Source: Bifidobacterium actinocoloniiforme DSM 22766 | Lineage (GTDB): Bacteria > Actinomycetota > Actinomycetes > Actinomycetales > Bifidobacteriaceae | NCBI RefSeq assembly: GCF_001263395.1 | Contig: NZ_CP011786.1 | Coordinates: forward strand, 930,001 to 994,000 | Direction: 5' to 3' | DNA: 64,000 nucleotides | Shown: one piece after another, positions 8,107-57,835 of the stretch | Numbering within the stretch: the stretch's first letter is position 1 | How the letters are laid out: each line of letters opens with the position of its first letter | Notes under the pieces: model-generated | Databases searched by the model: none | What the model was told of the DNA's origin: nothing | Seen by the model: only the letters and a program-made list of their open reading frames with translations | Made by a program: the position numbers and the translations under genes

Positions 8107-9486
8107 TTAATAATGCACGTACTGGTAGGCGCCGGCATTGTAGACGATCTCGGAGGCCGGGAACGTGGCGAATCCCGTGCCGCCCTCGGAGATGAGGACC
8201 GACCCGTCACCATTCACACGCTCCACCACCGCGACATGGCCGTACTGGGGATCAGCGTTCCAGCTACCGACCCGCTGGCCTTGGGCGAAGACCATGGCCG
8301 CTCCCACATGCGGGGTGTTGTTGACCACGTAGCCTAAGCCACGAGCCGTGTTGGCCCAATCCGCGCCATTACCCATATACGAGCCGACGGGCAGGCTCAG
8401 CTGAGAGCGCCGCAGGTAGGCCCACAGGGTGCACTGGCGGGGGGGATAGGCGGAACCACCCACGCTGTTGCCCGTGGGGTGCCCGTAGCAGAAGCCCGAG
8501 CCGGAGGGGCAGGAACCGGGGACGGCGTAGTTCATGCCAAAGGCGCCACCGCCACCGCCGCCACCACCACCACCGACGGAGGGCGCTGCTCCGCCGCCGC
8601 TCTGCTGGGCGCCACCGGAGCCGGGGTTGTACGACCCTGCGCTGGCGTTCTGTATGCTCCACGAGTCAATCTGCGACTGCATGGTCGCGATGTCCGCGGC
8701 CTCCCGAGCGGACTGAGAGCTCAGGCTCCCCTTCTGCGCCTCCAGGCTGGCCCTGGCTTGGGCGCCCTGATCGCGCAGCGCCTTGAGCTGGTCCTGCTTG
8801 GTCTGGGCGTCCTCAGCCGCCTTCTGGGCCGAGGCGGCCTCCTCGTCGGCCTGCTTCTTCAGGGTGGCTATCTGCTTTTCGATGGCCTCCAAACGGTCCT
8901 TGCGGTTCATGGAGGTGTTCATGCTGCCCGCCGCGTCCGAGGCGGCATTCGCCTCGCTTCGGCTGACGGCCGCGTCCGACTGCATTTTGCCCACGAACTC
9001 CTGGGTGTTGGAGGACTTGGTCACCAGGTTCATCACATCCGAGGCGTCGGAACCGTGGAAGCCCTTACGGGCCATCTGCGCCACAGCGTCCTTTGCGTCG
9101 TCGTAGTCGATCCCGGACTGCTTGATCTTCTCCTCCAGGGCTTGCTTGTCTTTCTTAGCGGCCTCCAGTCGCTCACCGGTCGCCTGGGCCTGGCTCTTGG
9201 CCTGCTCGGCGCTCTGCTGGGCCTGGGTCAAGGACTCCTGGGCGGCCGGAATCTCGGTGTTGTTCAGGTTGTTCAAATCCTCAATCTGCTGGGCCAGCTC
9301 GGAGGAGACGCCCGCCAACTTGTTCTTCAGGTACTCGTTGGTGTTCACCTTCTGCTGGTATTCGCTCCAGCTGACCGCCTGGGCTTTGGGCGCGTCCACG
9401 ACCGCGGAGGTCACCGCCCCCGCTAGGAGGGCGCAGCTGGCCAAGGCGAAGCCTACGACCGCCCGCATCCGCTTCATTCGAATCAA
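8107..9486 (-). CDS. Secreted coiled-coil/CHAP peptidoglycan hydrolase, probable FtsEX partner (PcsB-like)
   Basis: Signal peptide (MKRMRAVVGFALASC..., cleavage near AQA-V), then a long heptad-rich coiled coil (about residues 45-250), a Ser/Gly linker with a run of ten glycines, and a C-terminal CHAP domain with the catalytic Cys in RQCTLWAYLR and His in YGHVAVVE. CHAP domains are amidases or endopeptidases of peptidoglycan. Coiled coil plus CHAP directly downstream of ftsE-ftsX matches PcsB of streptococci, whose coiled coil is pulled by FtsX; the analogy is inference. Start: TTG at 9486 has GAAGGG about 9 nt upstream; ATG at 9477 is the alternative. Confidence 0.88.
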   Translation of the reverse strand: MIRMKRMRAVVGFALASCALLAGAVTSAVVDAPKAQAVSWSEYQQKVNTNEYLKNKLAGVSSELAQQIEDLNNLNNTEIPAAQESLTQAQQSAEQAKSQAQATGERLEAAKKDKQALEEKIKQSGIDYDDAKDAVAQMARKGFHGSDASDVMNLVTKSSNTQEFVGKMQSDAAVSRSEANAASDAAGSMNTSMNRKDRLEAIEKQIATLKKQADEEAASAQKAAEDAQTKQDQLKALRDQGAQARASLEAQKGSLSSQSAREAADIATMQSQIDSWSIQNASAGSYNPGSGGAQQSGGGAAPSVGGGGGGGGGGAFGMNYAVPGSCPSGSGFCYGHPTGNSVGGSAYPPRQCTLWAYLRRSQLSLPVGSYMGNGADWANTARGLGYVVNNTPHVGAAMVFAQGQRVGSWNADPQYGHVAVVERVNGDGSVLISEGGTGFATFPASEIVYNAGAYQYVHY

Positions 9487-38920: not shown

Positions 38921-38997
38921 GGCCCCGTAGCTCAGCTGGATAGAGCAACTGACTTCTAATCTGTAGGTCGCGAGTTCGAGTCTCGCCGGGGTCACCA
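38921..38997 (+). tRNA. tRNA-Arg (anticodon UCU)
   Basis: A full cloverleaf can be drawn: acceptor 38921-38927/38987-38993 (one G-U pair), D stem GCTC/GAGC, anticodon loop CTTCTAA with TCT at 38955-38957, T arm GCGAG-TTCGAGT-CTCGC, discriminator A and encoded CCA (38995-38997). It decodes AGA. The anticodon stem ACTGA/TCTGT has a U-U mismatch at its middle pair (29-41). The 3' end is the probable prophage integration site. Confidence 0.95.
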
Positions 38998-39499: not shown

Positions 39500-41782
39500 T
39501 TACTCCCGCCCGCGTCGGATGATGTTGTAGATGGTTGATACCGACACCCCGTATTGGGTGGAGAGCTCTTTGACGCTGGCTTGCTTGGCGTTGTAGAGGG
39601 ACTGGATCCGCTGGGCTTCCTGCGTGGTGACCCGGGCGCGTCGTTTCCTAGGCCGCGCTTGGGTTTTCTTGTGTTCGGCGGGTTGGCTGTCCGTGTCCTG
39701 CGGGGGGTCGGGGCGTATGTCCCATGTGGCGCTGGGCAGGATCCTCAGCCCGCTCGCGCGGTCGGTGAGGATGCGTGGGTCGCGCGACCATGAGCTCAGG
39801 GTCCGTTCCATCCGGTCTTGCGCCGGCCCCGTTTCCGGCATGGCGGCGAGCACGGCGTGGGCCGTGGCCTTGGGCGTGTGCCGGTCGGCCCAGGTGTCCT
39901 CGGGCATCCAGACCTGCCACAGGCCGTCGTCGGTGTGGCCGCGCCTGCGGTACAGGGTCATTCGGCTGACGCCGGTGGCTTGCTCGATGCTGGCCATGCT
40001 CTTGCCTTGCGCTTCGGCTTGCGCGCATAGGTCCATGAGCAGTTGGGAGAGCGTTTGGATGCGGATCCTGGCGTCCATCATGTCGGGCCTGGGGTCGGGG
40101 CCTGGCGCTGACACGGTGGTGGCGCGCGCGTGGTCGCGGAGGCGTTTGACGCTTGATGCGCTCTTGCCGTAGGCGTGCGCCAGCGCGGTGGATGGCCAGC
40201 CTTGCTCCAGGGCCGTCCTGGCCAGGTGGTCCAGGCTTTCGGTTTCCTGGGCGATGGCCCGCGCCACGTCCGTTAAATACGACATGTCGGGGCCGAGGAC
40301 CGCTGCGGAGAGATCCTCGAGCAAGGCGCGGCGTCGGAGGGCGGGGATGACGCCGTTGTGGGGGGCGAAGGGGGAGGGTTGGTCCGGTGAGGGCCAGGCG
40401 CTGATCTCGCTCGCCGCTTCGGCGGCCGCATGCACGGGGTCCAGCCTCCCGGAGAGGATGCGGCTCATGGCCGTGTCCAAGGTTTGCTCGGCTTCGTCGG
40501 CCGCGTCGGCGCGCAGGGCGTCGGCCCGCGCGCGGTGGCTGTGGGTCATGGAGCCCGCCGCCGTGGCCATGCTCAGCCGGTAGGAGCGCCAGGCGTCGCG
40601 CATGGCGCCCAGCCCCGCGACGGCCTTGTCCAGTACGCGGCCGCCGAGGCCGGTCAGCCAGTCGGGCAGGATCGGCTCGCTGTGGGTCTCCAGGTCGATG
40701 ATGGCGCTGGCTTGCTTGCCGTAGGTCATGGACGCCGTGCACAGGCGCCATCCCAGGTCGATGCCGGTGGCGGGCAGCGCGCGGCGGGCCCAGGACAGCG
40801 CGGAGGGTCCCGGGCCGGCCGAGGGCCCGGGCAGGGCCCGGCCGATCATGGACGGCAGGCCTTGGCGCGAGGGGGATTTACTGGGCACGCACCGGTGGGC
40901 GCGGTCGCGCCGCCAGCAGCCCATCGGCTCCAGGCCGTGCAGGGTCGTGGGGTCGGTGGCGTCCCCGTAGGTGACGGTCGCGCCGGTCACCCCGGCGGGC
41001 CCTCCGGCGAGCAGGACGCGGCGCGAGGGCCAGGCCAGGCAGTCGGCCGGGCCGGTGGCCGCGCGGCCGGACACGGGGTCCGGCGACGGGGGCGCGGTCC
41101 GCTCCCATACGGGCAGGTCGCCGGGGCGGGCGCAGTCGGGCGACCAGCCCAGGATCAGCGTATGGTACAGGTCCGGGCCCTCAAGCCATGCCATGTCCAT
41201 GCTCCCGCACAGGCCCATGACCTGGACGCCGCGCGGCGGGTACTCCTTGCCGCGCTTGGCGGTGGCGCTGCCCAGGGCGGCGGGTTTGATGCCCGCCGTG
41301 TCCCACGCTTGGATGGCGAGCAGCGCCGCCACGGCCCGCGCGGGGTCCACCGGCGCGTCCGATGCGGCCCGCGCGCCGAAAAGCGGCGGGCTTTCCACGG
41401 GGTCCGCCTCGCGCAGGGGGACCGGGCCCGCCGCCGTGGCCAGGCCGGGCGTCTGGAGGAAGGGCCGGTCCTTGTCGAAGAGGTCGAACCGCCCGGCCCA
41501 CCGGTCCAGGTAGGCGTCCACTTGGGCGGGGTCGAACCCGTCCCGCGCGTACAGGCCCAGCCATGCGTCCCGCCCGTCGGCGGACCCGCCGGGCGCCGGG
41601 AGGATCCGGTAGGTCAACGCCAGGAGGAGCCGCAGCGTGGGGATCCGGTATTCGGCCCTGGGCTCGGCCAGCCGCACCCTCCCGGCCTCATGCAATGTTT
41701 GGCGGATGCCCCACTCATGGGACCCGCCCCGCGCGTCGATGACGGGTATCCAAGGCTCTTCGAGCAGATCGTATCCGGGCAT
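39500..41782 (-). CDS. Cse1/CasA-like Cascade large subunit fused to helix-turn-helix domains (solitary, in prophage)
   Basis: 760 residues. Residues 1-495 follow the actinobacterial Cse1 pattern: YDLLEEPWIPVIDARGG at the N-terminus, LRLLLALTYRIL, FDLFDKDRPFLQTPGL (95-114), AIQAWDTAGIKPAALG (156-171), LAWPSRRVLLAGG, VTYGDATDPTTLHGLEPMGCWRR (270-292), SMTYGKQAS (351-359) and a C-terminal helical bundle. In type I-E Cascade, Cse1 reads the PAM and recruits Cas3. Residues 496-760 are extra, with HTH-like segments at about 523-550, 588-614 and 718-757, the last resolvase-like (VKELSTQYGVSVSTIYNII). No cas3, cse2, cas7, cas5, cas6, cas1, cas2 or array is in the window. Its ATG shares one base with the stop of the 139-aa gene (TGATG). 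Function inferred: Cascade interference or hijacking. Confidence 0.8.
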   Translation of the reverse strand: MPGYDLLEEPWIPVIDARGGSHEWGIRQTLHEAGRVRLAEPRAEYRIPTLRLLLALTYRILPAPGGSADGRDAWLGLYARDGFDPAQVDAYLDRWAGRFDLFDKDRPFLQTPGLATAAGPVPLREADPVESPPLFGARAASDAPVDPARAVAALLAIQAWDTAGIKPAALGSATAKRGKEYPPRGVQVMGLCGSMDMAWLEGPDLYHTLILGWSPDCARPGDLPVWERTAPPSPDPVSGRAATGPADCLAWPSRRVLLAGGPAGVTGATVTYGDATDPTTLHGLEPMGCWRRDRAHRCVPSKSPSRQGLPSMIGRALPGPSAGPGPSALSWARRALPATGIDLGWRLCTASMTYGKQASAIIDLETHSEPILPDWLTGLGGRVLDKAVAGLGAMRDAWRSYRLSMATAAGSMTHSHRARADALRADAADEAEQTLDTAMSRILSGRLDPVHAAAEAASEISAWPSPDQPSPFAPHNGVIPALRRRALLEDLSAAVLGPDMSYLTDVARAIAQETESLDHLARTALEQGWPSTALAHAYGKSASSVKRLRDHARATTVSAPGPDPRPDMMDARIRIQTLSQLLMDLCAQAEAQGKSMASIEQATGVSRMTLYRRRGHTDDGLWQVWMPEDTWADRHTPKATAHAVLAAMPETGPAQDRMERTLSSWSRDPRILTDRASGLRILPSATWDIRPDPPQDTDSQPAEHKKTQARPRKRRARVTTQEAQRIQSLYNAKQASVKELSTQYGVSVSTIYNIIRRGRE

Positions 41783-42201
41783 CAGTCCTCCGCCCCGAGG
41801 ATCTCCAGGACGGCGTCCCTGTCCAGGCCCGACGCCTGGGCGAGCTCCCTGACGCTCATGGAGTCCTCGGCCGCGTGGCGCAGGGCCCGCCTCAAATCGG
41901 AGTCGCTGTATATCATCCAGGAGAGGTCGCCGTCCTCGTCGCGCACCCGGTCCACCAGCTTCATGACCTGGGCGGCCGCCGTTTCGATCCGGTCCCGGTC
42001 TTGGTCGAAGAGCGTTTCGTCGGGCTCCGAGATCATGTATTCGATGCAATAGGCCTGGTCGTCGCTGACGTCGGATTCGTCGGCCGTCAGGCCGTCGACG
42101 CGCGCCGCCTGCCGTTGGAACTCCTTTGACATGCTCAGCGCGGCGGATGGCACGAGGTCGTACTTGTCCGCCATGCGCTGGGCCAACTCCTCTATGGTCA
42201 T
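41782..42201 (-). CDS. Very acidic 139-aa phage protein with C-terminal HTH-like segment
   Basis: Unknown function. About 34 of 139 residues are Asp or Glu, concentrated in the middle (ADESDVSDDQ, SEPDETLFDQDRDRIE, RDEDGD). The end, MSVRELAQASGLDRDAVLEIL, looks like a small HTH; the N-terminus MTIEELAQRMADKY is helical. ATG 42201 has GGGGAG upstream. It is coupled by TGATG to the Cse1-like gene, implying related roles or stoichiometry. Strong acidity is common in anti-CRISPR and DNA-mimic proteins but does not prove this. Confidence 0.75.
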   Translation of the reverse strand: MTIEELAQRMADKYDLVPSAALSMSKEFQRQAARVDGLTADESDVSDDQAYCIEYMISEPDETLFDQDRDRIETAAAQVMKLVDRVRDEDGDLSWMIYSDSDLRRALRHAAEDSMSVRELAQASGLDRDAVLEILGAED

Positions 42202-42243: not shown

Positions 42244-42256
42244 ATTGTACCACAAT
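42244..42256 (-). promoter_or_regulatory. Internal promoter with overlapping inverted repeat, ahead of the 139-aa/Cse1-like pair
   Basis: On the minus strand TGGTACAAT forms an extended -10 (TG-N-TACAAT; -10 hexamer at 42244-42249). The inverted repeat ATTGT-ACC-ACAAT (42244-42256) covers it exactly, as expected of a repressor operator. It lies 43 bp from the 139-aa start codon. The -35 is poor, which is tolerated by extended -10 promoters. Confidence 0.55.
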
Positions 42257-48080: not shown

Positions 48081-48943
48081 CGGGCGACCCCCTCGTCAAT
48101 AACCTCCACAGTACGCAGGCCGCGCCAAGTGAACCGTGGCCGCCCCAGATTGGGTTTGGCCATCACATCCACCCTGTGCGGGCGGCCTCCCTCCAGGACC
48201 ATGCGCCACTCCACGGACTGCCTGGCCCACACATGCGCCACCAGGCACTCGTCCAAACCATCACCCATGTCCTGATCGTCAACCACGGGCATTGCATAAA
48301 AGCTGCCCACCTGCTCGCCATCCACGCTCGCCCGCCACGTGAACTTGACCGTGACCAGCCGATCCGTGGCCAGCATCATCGTCTCAGCGGGAGCCTGCGA
48401 CCACCATTTGGTGCTCCAATCCTGCAAGACGCTGGACGTGTTGCTCCCGTAGCCGATCCGCCCCATCTTCGCCCCGTAGGGGATCGCGTAATCCACGCTC
48501 CCCATGGGCGACGCGGAGATCGTGGCGGACGCGCCCGCCGGCATCGTCATGTCCCTCAGCCGCAACCCCCCGGCCGGCACTACCGGGTGCGCAGGCGACG
48601 CGGACGGCGTGCCCTGCGCCACATGCAAGGACACCTGCCCGCCGGCCCGCGTATCCGCCAGCAAATACACCGTGTCGATGCGCGGGTACGCGCCGTCACC
48701 CGCCGTCACCGCCTCCAGGGTCAGCCCGCCGGGCCAGTACGCCTCCACCGACCCGTCCGACCCGCCAGTCGAGCACACCGCCACCCCGGCCGACGCCTGG
48801 TACCGCAAGCCCGCGGCCCCCGACACCTCCAAGCCGGCCACCACGCCCGGGTTCTCCCAATGCGCGCCAATGACGCGCCGGTGGGTCAAAGCGTCCATGC
48901 CCACGCCGTCCGCGTCCTGGGCCACGCCCAAAGCTGTCACCAT
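48077..48943 (-). CDS. Minor tail / baseplate protein
   Basis: 288 residues. The N-terminus (DALTHRRVIGAHWENPGVVAGLEVSG, YRIDTVYLLAD-like region YPRIDTVYLLAD) is typical of short beta-rich baseplate or fibre-adaptor proteins; the C-terminal half is likewise beta-rich, with RGLRTVEVIDEGVAR at the end. No enzyme motif. Translationally coupled to the next minor tail gene by a 4-bp overlap. Confidence 0.6.
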   Translation of the reverse strand: MVTALGVAQDADGVGMDALTHRRVIGAHWENPGVVAGLEVSGAAGLRYQASAGVAVCSTGGSDGSVEAYWPGGLTLEAVTAGDGAYPRIDTVYLLADTRAGGQVSLHVAQGTPSASPAHPVVPAGGLRLRDMTMPAGASATISASPMGSVDYAIPYGAKMGRIGYGSNTSSVLQDWSTKWWSQAPAETMMLATDRLVTVKFTWRASVDGEQVGSFYAMPVVDDQDMGDGLDECLVAHVWARQSVEWRMVLEGGRPHRVDVMAKPNLGRPRFTWRGLRTVEVIDEGVAR

Positions 48944-49856: not shown

Positions 49857-52800
49857 GCCATCCCCCTCAAAGCCATCCTCGCGGCCGATGCCATCTGCCT
49901 GCCCATGATTGTTCCTTCCACGAACGGGTCTTTGACGCCGTTGTTGGTGATGTTCACGGGCTGGATCACGGTGGGAGACACCACGGTGGACGTTGACTGT
50001 TCCACTTTCCCGGTCCGGTTCATCCTGTCCAAAGCGGCAAGCCCGATCCTCTTCGCCGCCCATGCCCTGACCACATACTCCTGGTCCGACAGCAAAGCCG
50101 GGATCGAATCACTCGTAGTGGTTCCAGGGCCGCGTACCAGACCGTAAGGCCCGCCGCCTGCCGAGAACCCTACAGGGCCACCATTCGCGCGGCTAACAGC
50201 GCCTCCGGCGAATTTCCCTGATGGTTTCCCGGTGAAGTAGGTCACGACTTCCCCAGGGATCCGCTTGAACCAATCCAGGATGTTCTGCACCACGCCACTC
50301 GCATGGTCGTGAGCGTTCAAATCGGTATCCTTTTGCCTCGGCACGCTCTTAATGGCATTATCCACGTCGCCGATGTTCTTGATCGCCCCGGAGTTGAAGG
50401 CGTTCATCACGGTGTCCTTTGTCGCAGGCGTGAGATTGAGAGTATTGAGATACTGCTCGACCTGGCCTTTGCTCAGCGGCGCGTTCTGGCTGATGTTCGT
50501 CCCGACATTCGAGGGTATGAGCCCAAGCTGATCCGCATACTGCTCGGCCTGCTCCTTGCTCATGCCGCACTGCTGGGCCGCGTCCACCATGGCTTGACGT
50601 GCCTGGTAGATGTTGTTCCTGGCATCCTGTGACGCCTGTCCGAGATTGCCGGTCGCTTGTCCCTGTTGCATCACGGCAGCGGCAGTAGCGATGGACTGAT
50701 CCGCCATGTTCTGCATGGCCTGCCGGTTCAGCTGCCCGGACTGGGTGTTGGCGTCAAGGCTACCGCCGTTGGCTTTGACGGTCGTCGATAGTCCCGACAA
50801 TTTGTTGTTGAGGTCCTGCTGTATGCGGCTCAGGTTTTCCGCGCTCCCGGCCATCTGGTTCTGCTGCCAGACTGCGTCGTTGTAAGCGTGGTTCATTTGC
50901 GCGAGCTTGCGTACACCCTCCTCGACTACGCCATTATGCTTACTTCCTTGCCCCGTGCTCTGCTCTAGAGACTGTACATATGAGTCGATGGAGCCTTTGT
51001 CTCCCTCAATGGCCCCTCGGAAGGTCTGCATGCTGACCCCGGCTCCGCTCAGCTCCTCCTTGAAGGAGCCGTACCCGGACCTGAATTTCTGGAACCAGCC
51101 CCAGTCCATGTCTGTGCCCTTGGTCGCTGCGGTGTCGACGAAGTCGGAGTAGGCAGTCTGTCCTTGCTGCAGAGCAGACTCCAAATCCGTTGTCCGATCT
51201 TTCGCTTTTTCCGCGTGGTCCGCCCACAGCATGACCCCGCCGACTGCCGCCGCAATTCCAGCGGCGGCGGCCCAACCACCAGGGCCGAGTCCGCCAAGCG
51301 GGCCAAGCAAGCCGGATACTCCTCCGCCGGCCTTTCCGGCTTTCGACCCCATTTCCTCGGAACTCTTGGCCAGCCCCGAGACATTAGGGGCTGCTAAAGA
51401 GGCAGATTTGCCGATACCGGCGAAGTCCCCTGCCAAGGGTGCCAGGCCAGCGCTGGAAGATACACGCGCCGAGACGAAATCCGAAAGGATGCCGCCTACT
51501 GATTTGACTCCTTTGCCCAGTCCACCGACTGCTTTCAAAGCCAGACCGATCGGGGCCTCTATGGCTTTGATCTGCCTGCCGAAGAACATACTGGCGCCGA
51601 TGGCTCCCTGTATGGGCGCTGGGAGCGAGGAGAAGGCCTTGACAAGGGTCCCCATGATGGTGATGGTCGGTGATAGGGCGTTCAGTGCCAGCGTCACCGA
51701 TTCCACACCCTTGGTAGCCAGGTCAAGACCAGGCTTGGCGCCTTTCATGCCTCCGCCGAACGGGTGCATCTCCTTGGTAGTGCCGGTAATCTGTTCACGG
51801 ACGCGCTTAAGAGCGTCCTGGAAGCGTTCGACGACCTTCGGGTCCATGCCCTTGAAACCGTCGGTGAAGGATTTAGAGATGGTGCCGGACTTGAGGAAGT
51901 CGCCCAGGCCCTTGACGCTGTCGCGGACATGTTTGACCGTGCTCTCTATGCCGTGCCGCGCGGAATCGGGCACATGGAAAGCCTGCGCGAAGGCGCCGGA
52001 CACCCTGCCGTCGCGTAGGAGGGAGACGGTCCCTCCTACGGCATTCGGGAGCCATTTGAAGAAACTGTCAAGCTTGCCGTTGATCTTGTCCACCACGTCG
52101 ATGCCCATATCGCCGAGGGCCCCAATGGCATCGATGAAGCCGCCCCCTATGGTGGTCTTGATGGCGGACAGTTGATGCTGCATGATGATGTACTTGCCGT
52201 ATGGGGTGGCCGCCATCGCTTTGTTCACGCCGCCGAAGTTCTGCTCCAGGACTTTGGCGAGGGTCGCGGCCCTCTCCTCCTGCGAGCCGTGGGCTAGGAG
52301 CTTTTTCTGGTTCTCGTCGAGGGTGACGCCGTACCTGCTCAAGGCGCCGACGTTGCCGGTCATGACCTTGCCTACCAGGTTTGACAGCTGTACGCCGTCC
52401 TCGGTCGTGGCATTGTAGCCCTTCGTGTTGGCGATGAGGTCAGCAAGAGCTGGCGTGAGGGTCTTGACGCTTTGGGAGGAGAGCATGAAAGTACCGAGCT
52501 GGGCCTGTGACGCTTTCAGCGTCCCTGCGCTGATGATGCCCGTCCTGCCGAGCTCCTTGTTGTAAGCGAGTAACGCCTGGGTTTGGTCCTGCGCCCAGTG
52601 GTTGTTGCTTGCGATTTGCTGGAATTTGGCTGTCGTGCCGCTGATTTCGTTGTAGGCGTCTATAGCGGTGCGCCCGTAGTTGACAATCCCCCTCGCACCG
52701 AAAGCCAGGAGAGACCCAATGGCGACCGTGCTGGCCTTGACGTGGCCGACCACTCCCTGATAAGCCGCCCCCAGTCCATTAACGGTGGCACCGGCCTTAT

Positions 52801-56596: not shown

Positions 56597-57835
56597 CTAC
56601 TTGGACCGGGCGGCCTTGCCGAGGGTCACCTTGACGAAGGCCTTGGGGTACTTGACTTGCAAGCCCACCCTCTCCTTGAGGCGAATGGCTTGTTTGTCGT
56701 TGATGAAGAAGTCCGCGTGTGAATCAGTGGACTTGATGTCGATGCCACCTTTGCGCAGCACCTTGCCGCCGGCTTTGAAAGCGCCGACGATGGCGGTTCC
56801 TGGGGTCACAGCCTCGGTGACCACGGTGCGCAAGCCCCAGATGGGCGGGTCCTGCATGACGCCGCCGTTACCGTACTGGCCGGTGAAGTAACCGCCGCCG
56901 AAGTACTGTCCGTTACTGTCCTTGGACAGGCGAATGGCCTCATAGTCGGTAGGGTTGATGACGATGCCGTCCGGGTTGAACCCGGTGTCATGACTGATCA
57001 GCCTACGGCATGCGAACAGTCTGTCTGCATCGGAGTCGTCCCCCTGCCCCAGGGTCTGGATGCCGCGCATGAGCAGACCTTTGAGGTTCGGGTCATTGCC
57101 GTCGCCGTTGAGTAGCTGGTTCTCCTCCTCCAATCCGAGGGAGTATTGGGCGGCGTCGGTAATCTCGCCCTGCAGCCATGGCAGGTCCTCCACCATGTCG
57201 TCGGATACGCCGAACCAGACAGCAATCTCTCCAAGGGAGTCCGTCTGCCAGGTGGGGTCGGGGAAGTGGGCCTGCGCTTTGGTCCCGCCCTCCTTGACGG
57301 TCTTCGCCCCGCCTTCAAGCTCCCCGTACACCGGATACTTGAGGGCGGACCCTGAAAGGGCGCCCTGCGCGAACAGGTCGGCCACCACGAGGGGCCTGCG
57401 GTAAGGGCTGACGCCCTCCTGGTCCACTTGCGTGACGAAAGGCCCGAACGCACCGTCGGAGCCTCCGACCATTTGCGTGTCAGTAGGTGCCTTGAAGGAC
57501 ACCTCCATGCCGGCTTTGAACGCCTGCCGGGCTTTTATGCCCTTAGCCTGCAAGTTCTTAATAAAGAACTCTCCAGGCGTGCGCGACTTAGCCGCAGAGC
57601 CACCGTCGTTGCCTGTTGGCGCCGGGTCGGACGATGACAGCCCGTCGATGCTGTGCAGGAGCTGCGCGCTTTCGTCAGCTTTCTTGATTTGGTGGTCCAG
57701 GTCGGACACCTTTTCGAGGAGGTCCTTGACGGCTTTGGTGCCGTCCTCGTCGAGGGCATCCCCGGTTTTGAGCTGCTGCTGGTAGGCTTTCAGCTTTTCG
57801 ATGGCTTCGGCCCGCTTTTCCTTGAGTGTGGCCAT
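56597..57835 (-). CDS. HK97-type major capsid protein with N-terminal delta domain
   Basis: 412 residues. The first ~100 residues are a helical, coiled-coil scaffold (LKEKRAEAIEKLKAYQQQLK, LEKVSDLDHQIKKADESAQ), normally removed by the prohead protease. The remainder is the HK97 fold (VTQVDQEGVSPYRRPLVVADLF, EIAVWFGVSDDMVEDLPWLQ, GIVINPTDYEAIRLSKDSNGQYFGGG). The stop and start with the protease gene are one base apart in the same operon. Confidence 0.92.
   Translation of the reverse strand: MATLKEKRAEAIEKLKAYQQQLKTGDALDEDGTKAVKDLLEKVSDLDHQIKKADESAQLLHSIDGLSSSDPAPTGNDGGSAAKSRTPGEFFIKNLQAKGIKARQAFKAGMEVSFKAPTDTQMVGGSDGAFGPFVTQVDQEGVSPYRRPLVVADLFAQGALSGSALKYPVYGELEGGAKTVKEGGTKAQAHFPDPTWQTDSLGEIAVWFGVSDDMVEDLPWLQGEITDAAQYSLGLEEENQLLNGDGNDPNLKGLLMRGIQTLGQGDDSDADRLFACRRLISHDTGFNPDGIVINPTDYEAIRLSKDSNGQYFGGGYFTGQYGNGGVMQDPPIWGLRTVVTEAVTPGTAIVGAFKAGGKVLRKGGIDIKSTDSHADFFINDKQAIRLKERVGLQVKYPKAFVKVTLGKAARSK

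Follow-up and report, generated by a model that had tools for sequence, protein, structure and literature searches.

A lone Cse1 homologue with HTH-like segments in a Bifidobacterium actinocoloniiforme prophage, a candidate anti-CRISPR

Background

Type I-E is the structurally best-studied CRISPR subtype, and Cse1, also known as CasA or Cas8e, is the large subunit of its Cascade complex. Homologues of Cascade subunits are also encoded by viruses. AcrIB3 and AcrIB4, solitary viral homologues of Cas5 and Cas8b from the work of Katz et al. 2024 (summary in PMC13131331), are inhibitors of CRISPR whose hosts have the same subtype. Anti-CRISPRs with self-repressing HTHs are likewise known, AcrIF24 being an example (PMC9001735, PMC9638941). 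In bifidobacteria, a review of January 2026 counts zero experimentally validated anti-CRISPRs (PMC12838274). In Bifidobacterium actinocoloniiforme DSM 22766, self-matches of CRISPR spacers, directed against the strain's own prophage, were recorded by Briner et al. 2015, who left them unexplained and suspected the CRISPR system of being inactive (PMC4521832).

The stretch of DNA analysed here, hereafter the window, comprises 64,000 nucleotides (positions 930001-994000 of the 1.83-Mb single-contig genome of DSM 22766) and encodes a prophage protein of the Cse1 type. It resembles Cse1 of type I-E Cascade in sequence family, in predicted fold over residues 1-539 and in its L1 Phe, GIK loop and wedge Gln, but it is encoded apart from type I-E genes, carries about 220 extra residues with HTHs and differs in the ARWL motif (Arg and Trp) and in the S..Q.KK loop. 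AcrIB3 and AcrIB4 belong to type I-B and correspond to Cas5 or to the C-terminal domain of Cas8b, whereas the prophage protein is of type I-E and represents the whole large subunit; they inhibit CRISPR, an activity that is putative for the prophage protein, which has fused HTHs. With AcrIF24 and the Aca proteins it shares an HTH in or beside a candidate anti-CRISPR and, in two relatives, palindromic promoter sites; here, in contrast, the partner gene lies upstream, repression is putative, and no similarity of the partner to known Aca proteins was found in the searches made. A literature search outside which the primary paper on viral cas genes fell turned up no account of a lone, HTH-tailed Cse1, and priority is not claimed.

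Results

The window stops inside an apparently complete prophage of 43 kb, bounded by a direct repeat and with a tyrosine integrase gene at its right end. In window numbering, the features which place the Cse1-like gene are:

38951-38995 (+), attL core of 45 bp, a direct repeat inside tRNA-Arg (38921-38997)
39500-41782 (-), lone Cse1/Cas8e homologue of 760 aa (ORF, family profiles, AlphaFold2 model)
64500-67794, type IV-B module (cysH-like, csf3, csf2, cas11, csf1), outside the window in the same prophage
82361-82405, second 45-bp att copy, at the right end of the prophage

On a reading of their translations, the frames resemble, from right to left, terminase, portal, capsid, tail, lysin and holin, followed by small genes at the prophage left end, past which the Cse1-like gene adjoins attL. 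A related tRNA-Arg prophage in another genome has other genes between the lysis genes and the tRNA, and the site of the Cse1-like gene looks like a cargo position. The first-pass annotation of the window had placed the gene in a prophage, an assignment which the att repeat in tRNA-Arg and the integrase bear out. At positions 11-964, the window has 171/345-bp tandem repeats, and the repeat protein they encode reads like RCC1 repeats.

The gene had also been described as standing without any other cas gene or array. The prophage as a whole yielded no CRISPR array, and the absence of other cas genes holds within the window but not for the whole prophage, which carries a complete type IV-B module beginning 0.5 kb and ending 3.8 kb past the window end. 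Its genes match PADLOC models (E 3e-62 for csf1, 1e-63 for cas11, 2e-79 for csf2 and 3e-37 for csf3), and the cysH-like gene matches PAPS_reduct (E 2e-10). Complete cas genes and an array of the same phage just outside the window had been named as the finding that would make the protein an ordinary Cascade subunit: a cas module is indeed there, of type IV-B, with no array, and type I-E genes are absent from the prophage as a whole and from the surroundings of the lone Cse1, both here and in its two relatives described below. Among 189 Bifidobacteriaceae genomes csf2 was found in no other, the genomes of those two relatives included, and among phage records it occurred only in Skermania phage SPI1 (28% identity). 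A lone host-type repeat in the prophage, which would have made an RNA anti-CRISPR, was rejected as a candidate, the best match having 9/29 mismatches.

The Cse1-like gene is a single uninterrupted frame with zero internal stops, and its product matches Pfam CRISPR_Cse1 (E 2e-55, residues 5-445), NCBIfam casA_cse1 (E 5e-23, exceeding the model cut-off) and PADLOC Cas8e (E 6e-52), as well as T. fusca Cse1 (3WVO) in a sequence search (E 2e-29). By sequence, the protein is a member of the Cse1/Cas8e family, with homology far beyond chance. The AlphaFold2 model (mean pLDDT 77.7) aligns 487 residues, all within residues 1-539 and with the C-terminal helical bundle included, to 3WVO with Z 43.0 and rmsd 3.0; the input alignment of the model contained Cse1 proteins, so that the fold match agrees with the sequence match and is not independent of it. 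Both the full-length Cse1-type region of the first-pass annotation and the Cse1 fold it expected from structure prediction are thus upheld, by the three profile matches and the predicted fold over residues 1-539. The same annotation had counted three HTH-like segments; judged by profile E-values, the C-terminal one is clear, the middle one moderate, and the first, which overlaps the end of the Cse1-like region, weak. The parts of the protein are:

40163-41782 (-), Cse1 region and C-terminal helical bundle, residues 1-540 (AlphaFold2 model against T. fusca Cse1)
40085-40213 (-), HTH-like segment 1, residues 524-566 (NCBIfam IS630 transposase model, E 1.8e-5; weak)
39941-40024 (-), HTH-like segment 2, residues about 587-614 (HTH_23 E 2.4e-4 and HTH_7 E 4.5e-4, as an isolated fragment)
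39512-39625 (-), C-terminal HTH, residues 720-757 (HTH_23, E 2.9e-9)

In the model, residues 720-757 resemble DeoR and resolvase HTHs (Z about 5.7), and the HTHs of the protein may well serve autoregulation.

Relatives were sought in 189 genomes of the family and, with a pattern scan, among 84,980 species genomes. Two further lone Cse1 genes were found, in B. rousetti and B. biavatii, and these were the only 2 of the 80 loci kept by the pattern scan without neighbouring cas matches; other close relatives adjoin cas genes. The annotation had proposed, as a check, to look in related prophages for the gene without cas neighbours; such a gene is seen in two more species. Its mobility is presumed in B. 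rousetti, whose contig has no clear phage genes, and the B. biavatii operon has a phage-type integrase gene at a distance of about 1 kb or less. In a quick tree, the three lone proteins form one clade apart from host Cse1 (SH-aLRT 99), in which the long branch of the window protein makes its exact place less sure than that value implies. The B. biavatii protein is also modelled with a complete Cse1 fold (pLDDT 85.6, Z 39.7). The Cse1 part is common to all members and the C-terminal modules vary: in B. rousetti and B. biavatii this domain has zero Pfam family matches and is, at a guess, NUMOD-like. B. rousetti has a type I-E system, and B. biavatii is listed without a CRISPR system (PMC4521832).

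No relatives were found among 50,697 phage genomes. Matches in IMG/VR were limited to a copy of this very prophage and to three distant loci that adjoin cas genes, and single-sequence scans of that database with the B. rousetti and B. biavatii proteins returned nothing. Plasmid matches were nearly all annotated as type I-E casA, and the two examined sit in multi-gene type I-E operons. One 202-kb IMG/VR contig (L071:5071-12554) has cas3, cse1, cas7, cas5 and cas6-like frames, with cse2 not evident, and the B. breve megaplasmid pMP7017 (59842-72696) has cas6e, casA, casB, cas7e, cas5e and cas1e, with cas3 unannotated in that stretch.

The conservation of Cse1 residues was assessed over 94 columns, chosen because 75% or more of the other Cse1 proteins agree there. 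Of these columns, 62 are retained by two or all three of the lone proteins, and the other 32 are altered in two or more; E. coli CasA itself retains only 44%. The L1 Phe and the GIK loop are kept and so, judged by eye, is the wedge Gln; the ARWL motif is altered at its Arg and Trp, as is the S..Q.KK loop. With the Gly loop, L1 Phe and wedge Gln retained, a loss of PAM recognition is not evident from the sequences.

A small partner gene precedes the lone Cse1, and a possible promoter lies upstream of it:

41782-42201 (-), small upstream partner gene with a C-terminal HTH-like segment, homologous in all three lone-Cse1 loci
42244-42256 (-), ATTGTGGTACAAT, inverted repeat upstream of the partner gene, spanning a possible extended -10 (by eye)

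The partner stop overlaps the Cse1 start in all three loci (TGATG or ATGA), in the window as TGA and ATG within TGATG, and because of this overlap the two genes are termed translationally coupled. The HTH similarity of the window partner is weak (PHROG 686, E 0.002) and that of its homologues better. A profile search with the partner gave strong matches only in the three lone-Cse1 genomes and one further genome of the family, which has no lone Cse1 match and in which the homologue (E 3e-18) lies near a contig end (G073:C2:176828-177217). The operon promoters of B. rousetti and B. biavatii agree with the consensus at 11/12 positions, which 0 of 300 shuffles equalled, and paired operator-like sites resembling TGTCTATACTATAGACA cover their -35 and -10; the palindrome exceeds chance in B. 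rousetti (1/300 shuffles) and does not in B. biavatii (29/300). In the window, a sigma-70 consensus scan gave zero sites, the inverted repeat ATTGTGGTACAAT was no better than shuffled sequences, and no good promoter or operator for the Cse1 operon was found.

The host chromosome carries a complete type I-E locus of cas3, cse1, cse2, cas7, cas5, cas6, cas1 and cas2, where cse1 was identified by Pfam (E 4e-92) and the other genes were named from gene order and resemblance. Over residues 4-293, the prophage protein and the host Cse1 share 35% identity. The host array has 81 repeats and 80 spacers, its repeat and repeat count matching the listing for DSM 22766 (PMC4521832). Two of its spacers match the prophage:

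51095-51127 (+), protospacer of host spacer 26 (31/33 identical, upstream AA)
48338-48370 (+), protospacer of host spacer 53 (31/33 identical, upstream CA)

In two control runs with reversed sequences, the best match had 10 mismatches. Assuming a 29-nt repeat, spacer 26 is mismatched at guide positions 3 and 17 and spacer 53 at positions 7 and 24. Interference is usually weakened by seed mismatches, and because both protospacers have them, self-targeting of the prophage by host spacers is suggestive and does not prove a need for an inhibitor; with these mismatches, and a non-AA flank at one site, the prophage may simply have escaped. A spacer that occurs twice in the type I-E array of B. rousetti also matches the prophage of the window, at 56888 (28/33, upstream AA), which suggests that the array of a second species also remembers this phage family. 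AA is the PAM of S. thermophilus type I-E, in agreement with the AA at the spacer 26 and B. rousetti matches. The host array had zero usable protospacers in phage records, and B. rousetti spacers gave nothing convincing against their own element, where values of 5-7 mismatches include short, loosely cut pieces.

Discussion

We favour, with moderate confidence, the reading that the lone Cse1 is an anti-CRISPR which replaces or competes with host Cse1, as the first-pass annotation had proposed first, its operon being controlled through HTHs in an Aca-like manner. During infection or in the lysogen, the protein would occupy the position of host Cse1 on the core of Cas5, Cas7 and crRNA or, alternatively, bind Cas3, and Cascade would then fail at PAM recognition or Cas3 recruitment. 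The small HTH protein and the HTHs of the Cse1-like protein would repress the operon, like Aca proteins and two-function anti-CRISPRs of which AcrIF24 is one. The support for replacement or competition is circumstantial: an intact-looking host type I-E system, two spacers matching at 31/33, a separate clade and an operon with an HTH-like gene. A mobile element without a type I-E operon of its own was found, as was a host with the matching subtype. Of the traits expected of an acr-aca operon, a coupled small gene, with weak HTH similarity, is present in 3/3 loci, an 11/12 promoter in the two relatives and not in the window, and a palindrome exceeding shuffles in B. rousetti alone. The Cse1 homology and fold, the precedent of AcrIB3 and AcrIB4, the independently reported self-matches, the promoter with operator-like sites in the two relatives and the different cargo of the related prophage all count towards this reading. 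Against it count the listing of B. biavatii as a species without a CRISPR system, the seed mismatches in both protospacers, the retained Gly loop, L1 Phe and wedge Gln, and the lack of a good promoter or operator in the window; moreover, three HTHs and 265 extra residues exceed the needs of a decoy. For the spacers of DSM 22766 that match the prophage, the lone Cse1 offers a concrete, testable alternative to a suspected inactive CRISPR system and, if the reading is true, Cas-subunit mimicry extends to the type I-E large subunit, with a built-in DNA-binding part.

The persistence of the gene in B. biavatii, without any CRISPR system (PMC4521832), speaks for the second proposal of the first-pass annotation, a DNA-binding repressor, here taken as a regulator that is independent of CRISPR and derived from an old Cse1 fold, whose HTHs and helical bundle would bind phage or host promoters. 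The HTHs of the protein itself and the HTH-like partner product agree with such a role, but the whole Cse1 fold, bundle included, is kept in both modelled members (window and B. biavatii), the L1 Phe, the GIK loop and the wedge Gln are still in place, and it is the C-terminal modules that differ among members while the Cse1 part is common; on balance we consider a regulator rather unlikely, though a live rival. Less probable again is that the protein becomes part of host Cascade and, instead of blocking the complex, uses its fused DNA-binding domains to re-aim it at phage or host operators or at rival phages. A complete Cse1 fold with fused DNA-binding parts, and the retention of motifs thought to contact crRNA and PAM, would suit this role, which however needs a host type I-E system, missing in B. 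biavatii (PMC4521832).

That the prophage also has a complete type IV-B module (a system type described in PMC8175902) raises the question of whether the lone Cse1 is an extra large subunit of that complex, which we regard as very improbable. The module already has its own large subunit, csf1, and lies more than 20 kb from the lone Cse1; csf2 is missing from the two other lone-Cse1 genomes and from the other Bifidobacteriaceae searched. Since the module is absent from the B. rousetti and B. biavatii genomes, the lone Cse1 is unlikely to be a mere part of it. The least credible reading, to which the long branch of the window protein and the 32 of 94 altered columns might point, is that the phage acquired a type I-E operon of which the gene is a decaying remnant; against it stand the intact frames in three species, the same fold, the same overlapping partner gene and the strong promoters in B. 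rousetti and B. biavatii.

In the cas locus of the host chromosome, the CRISPR repeat recurs as two degenerate copies (10 and 7 mismatches; L003:9117-9145 and 9166-9194), which lie about 20 nt apart between cas3 and cse1, directly before cse1, and may be a regulatory element that the cas operon has derived from the repeat.
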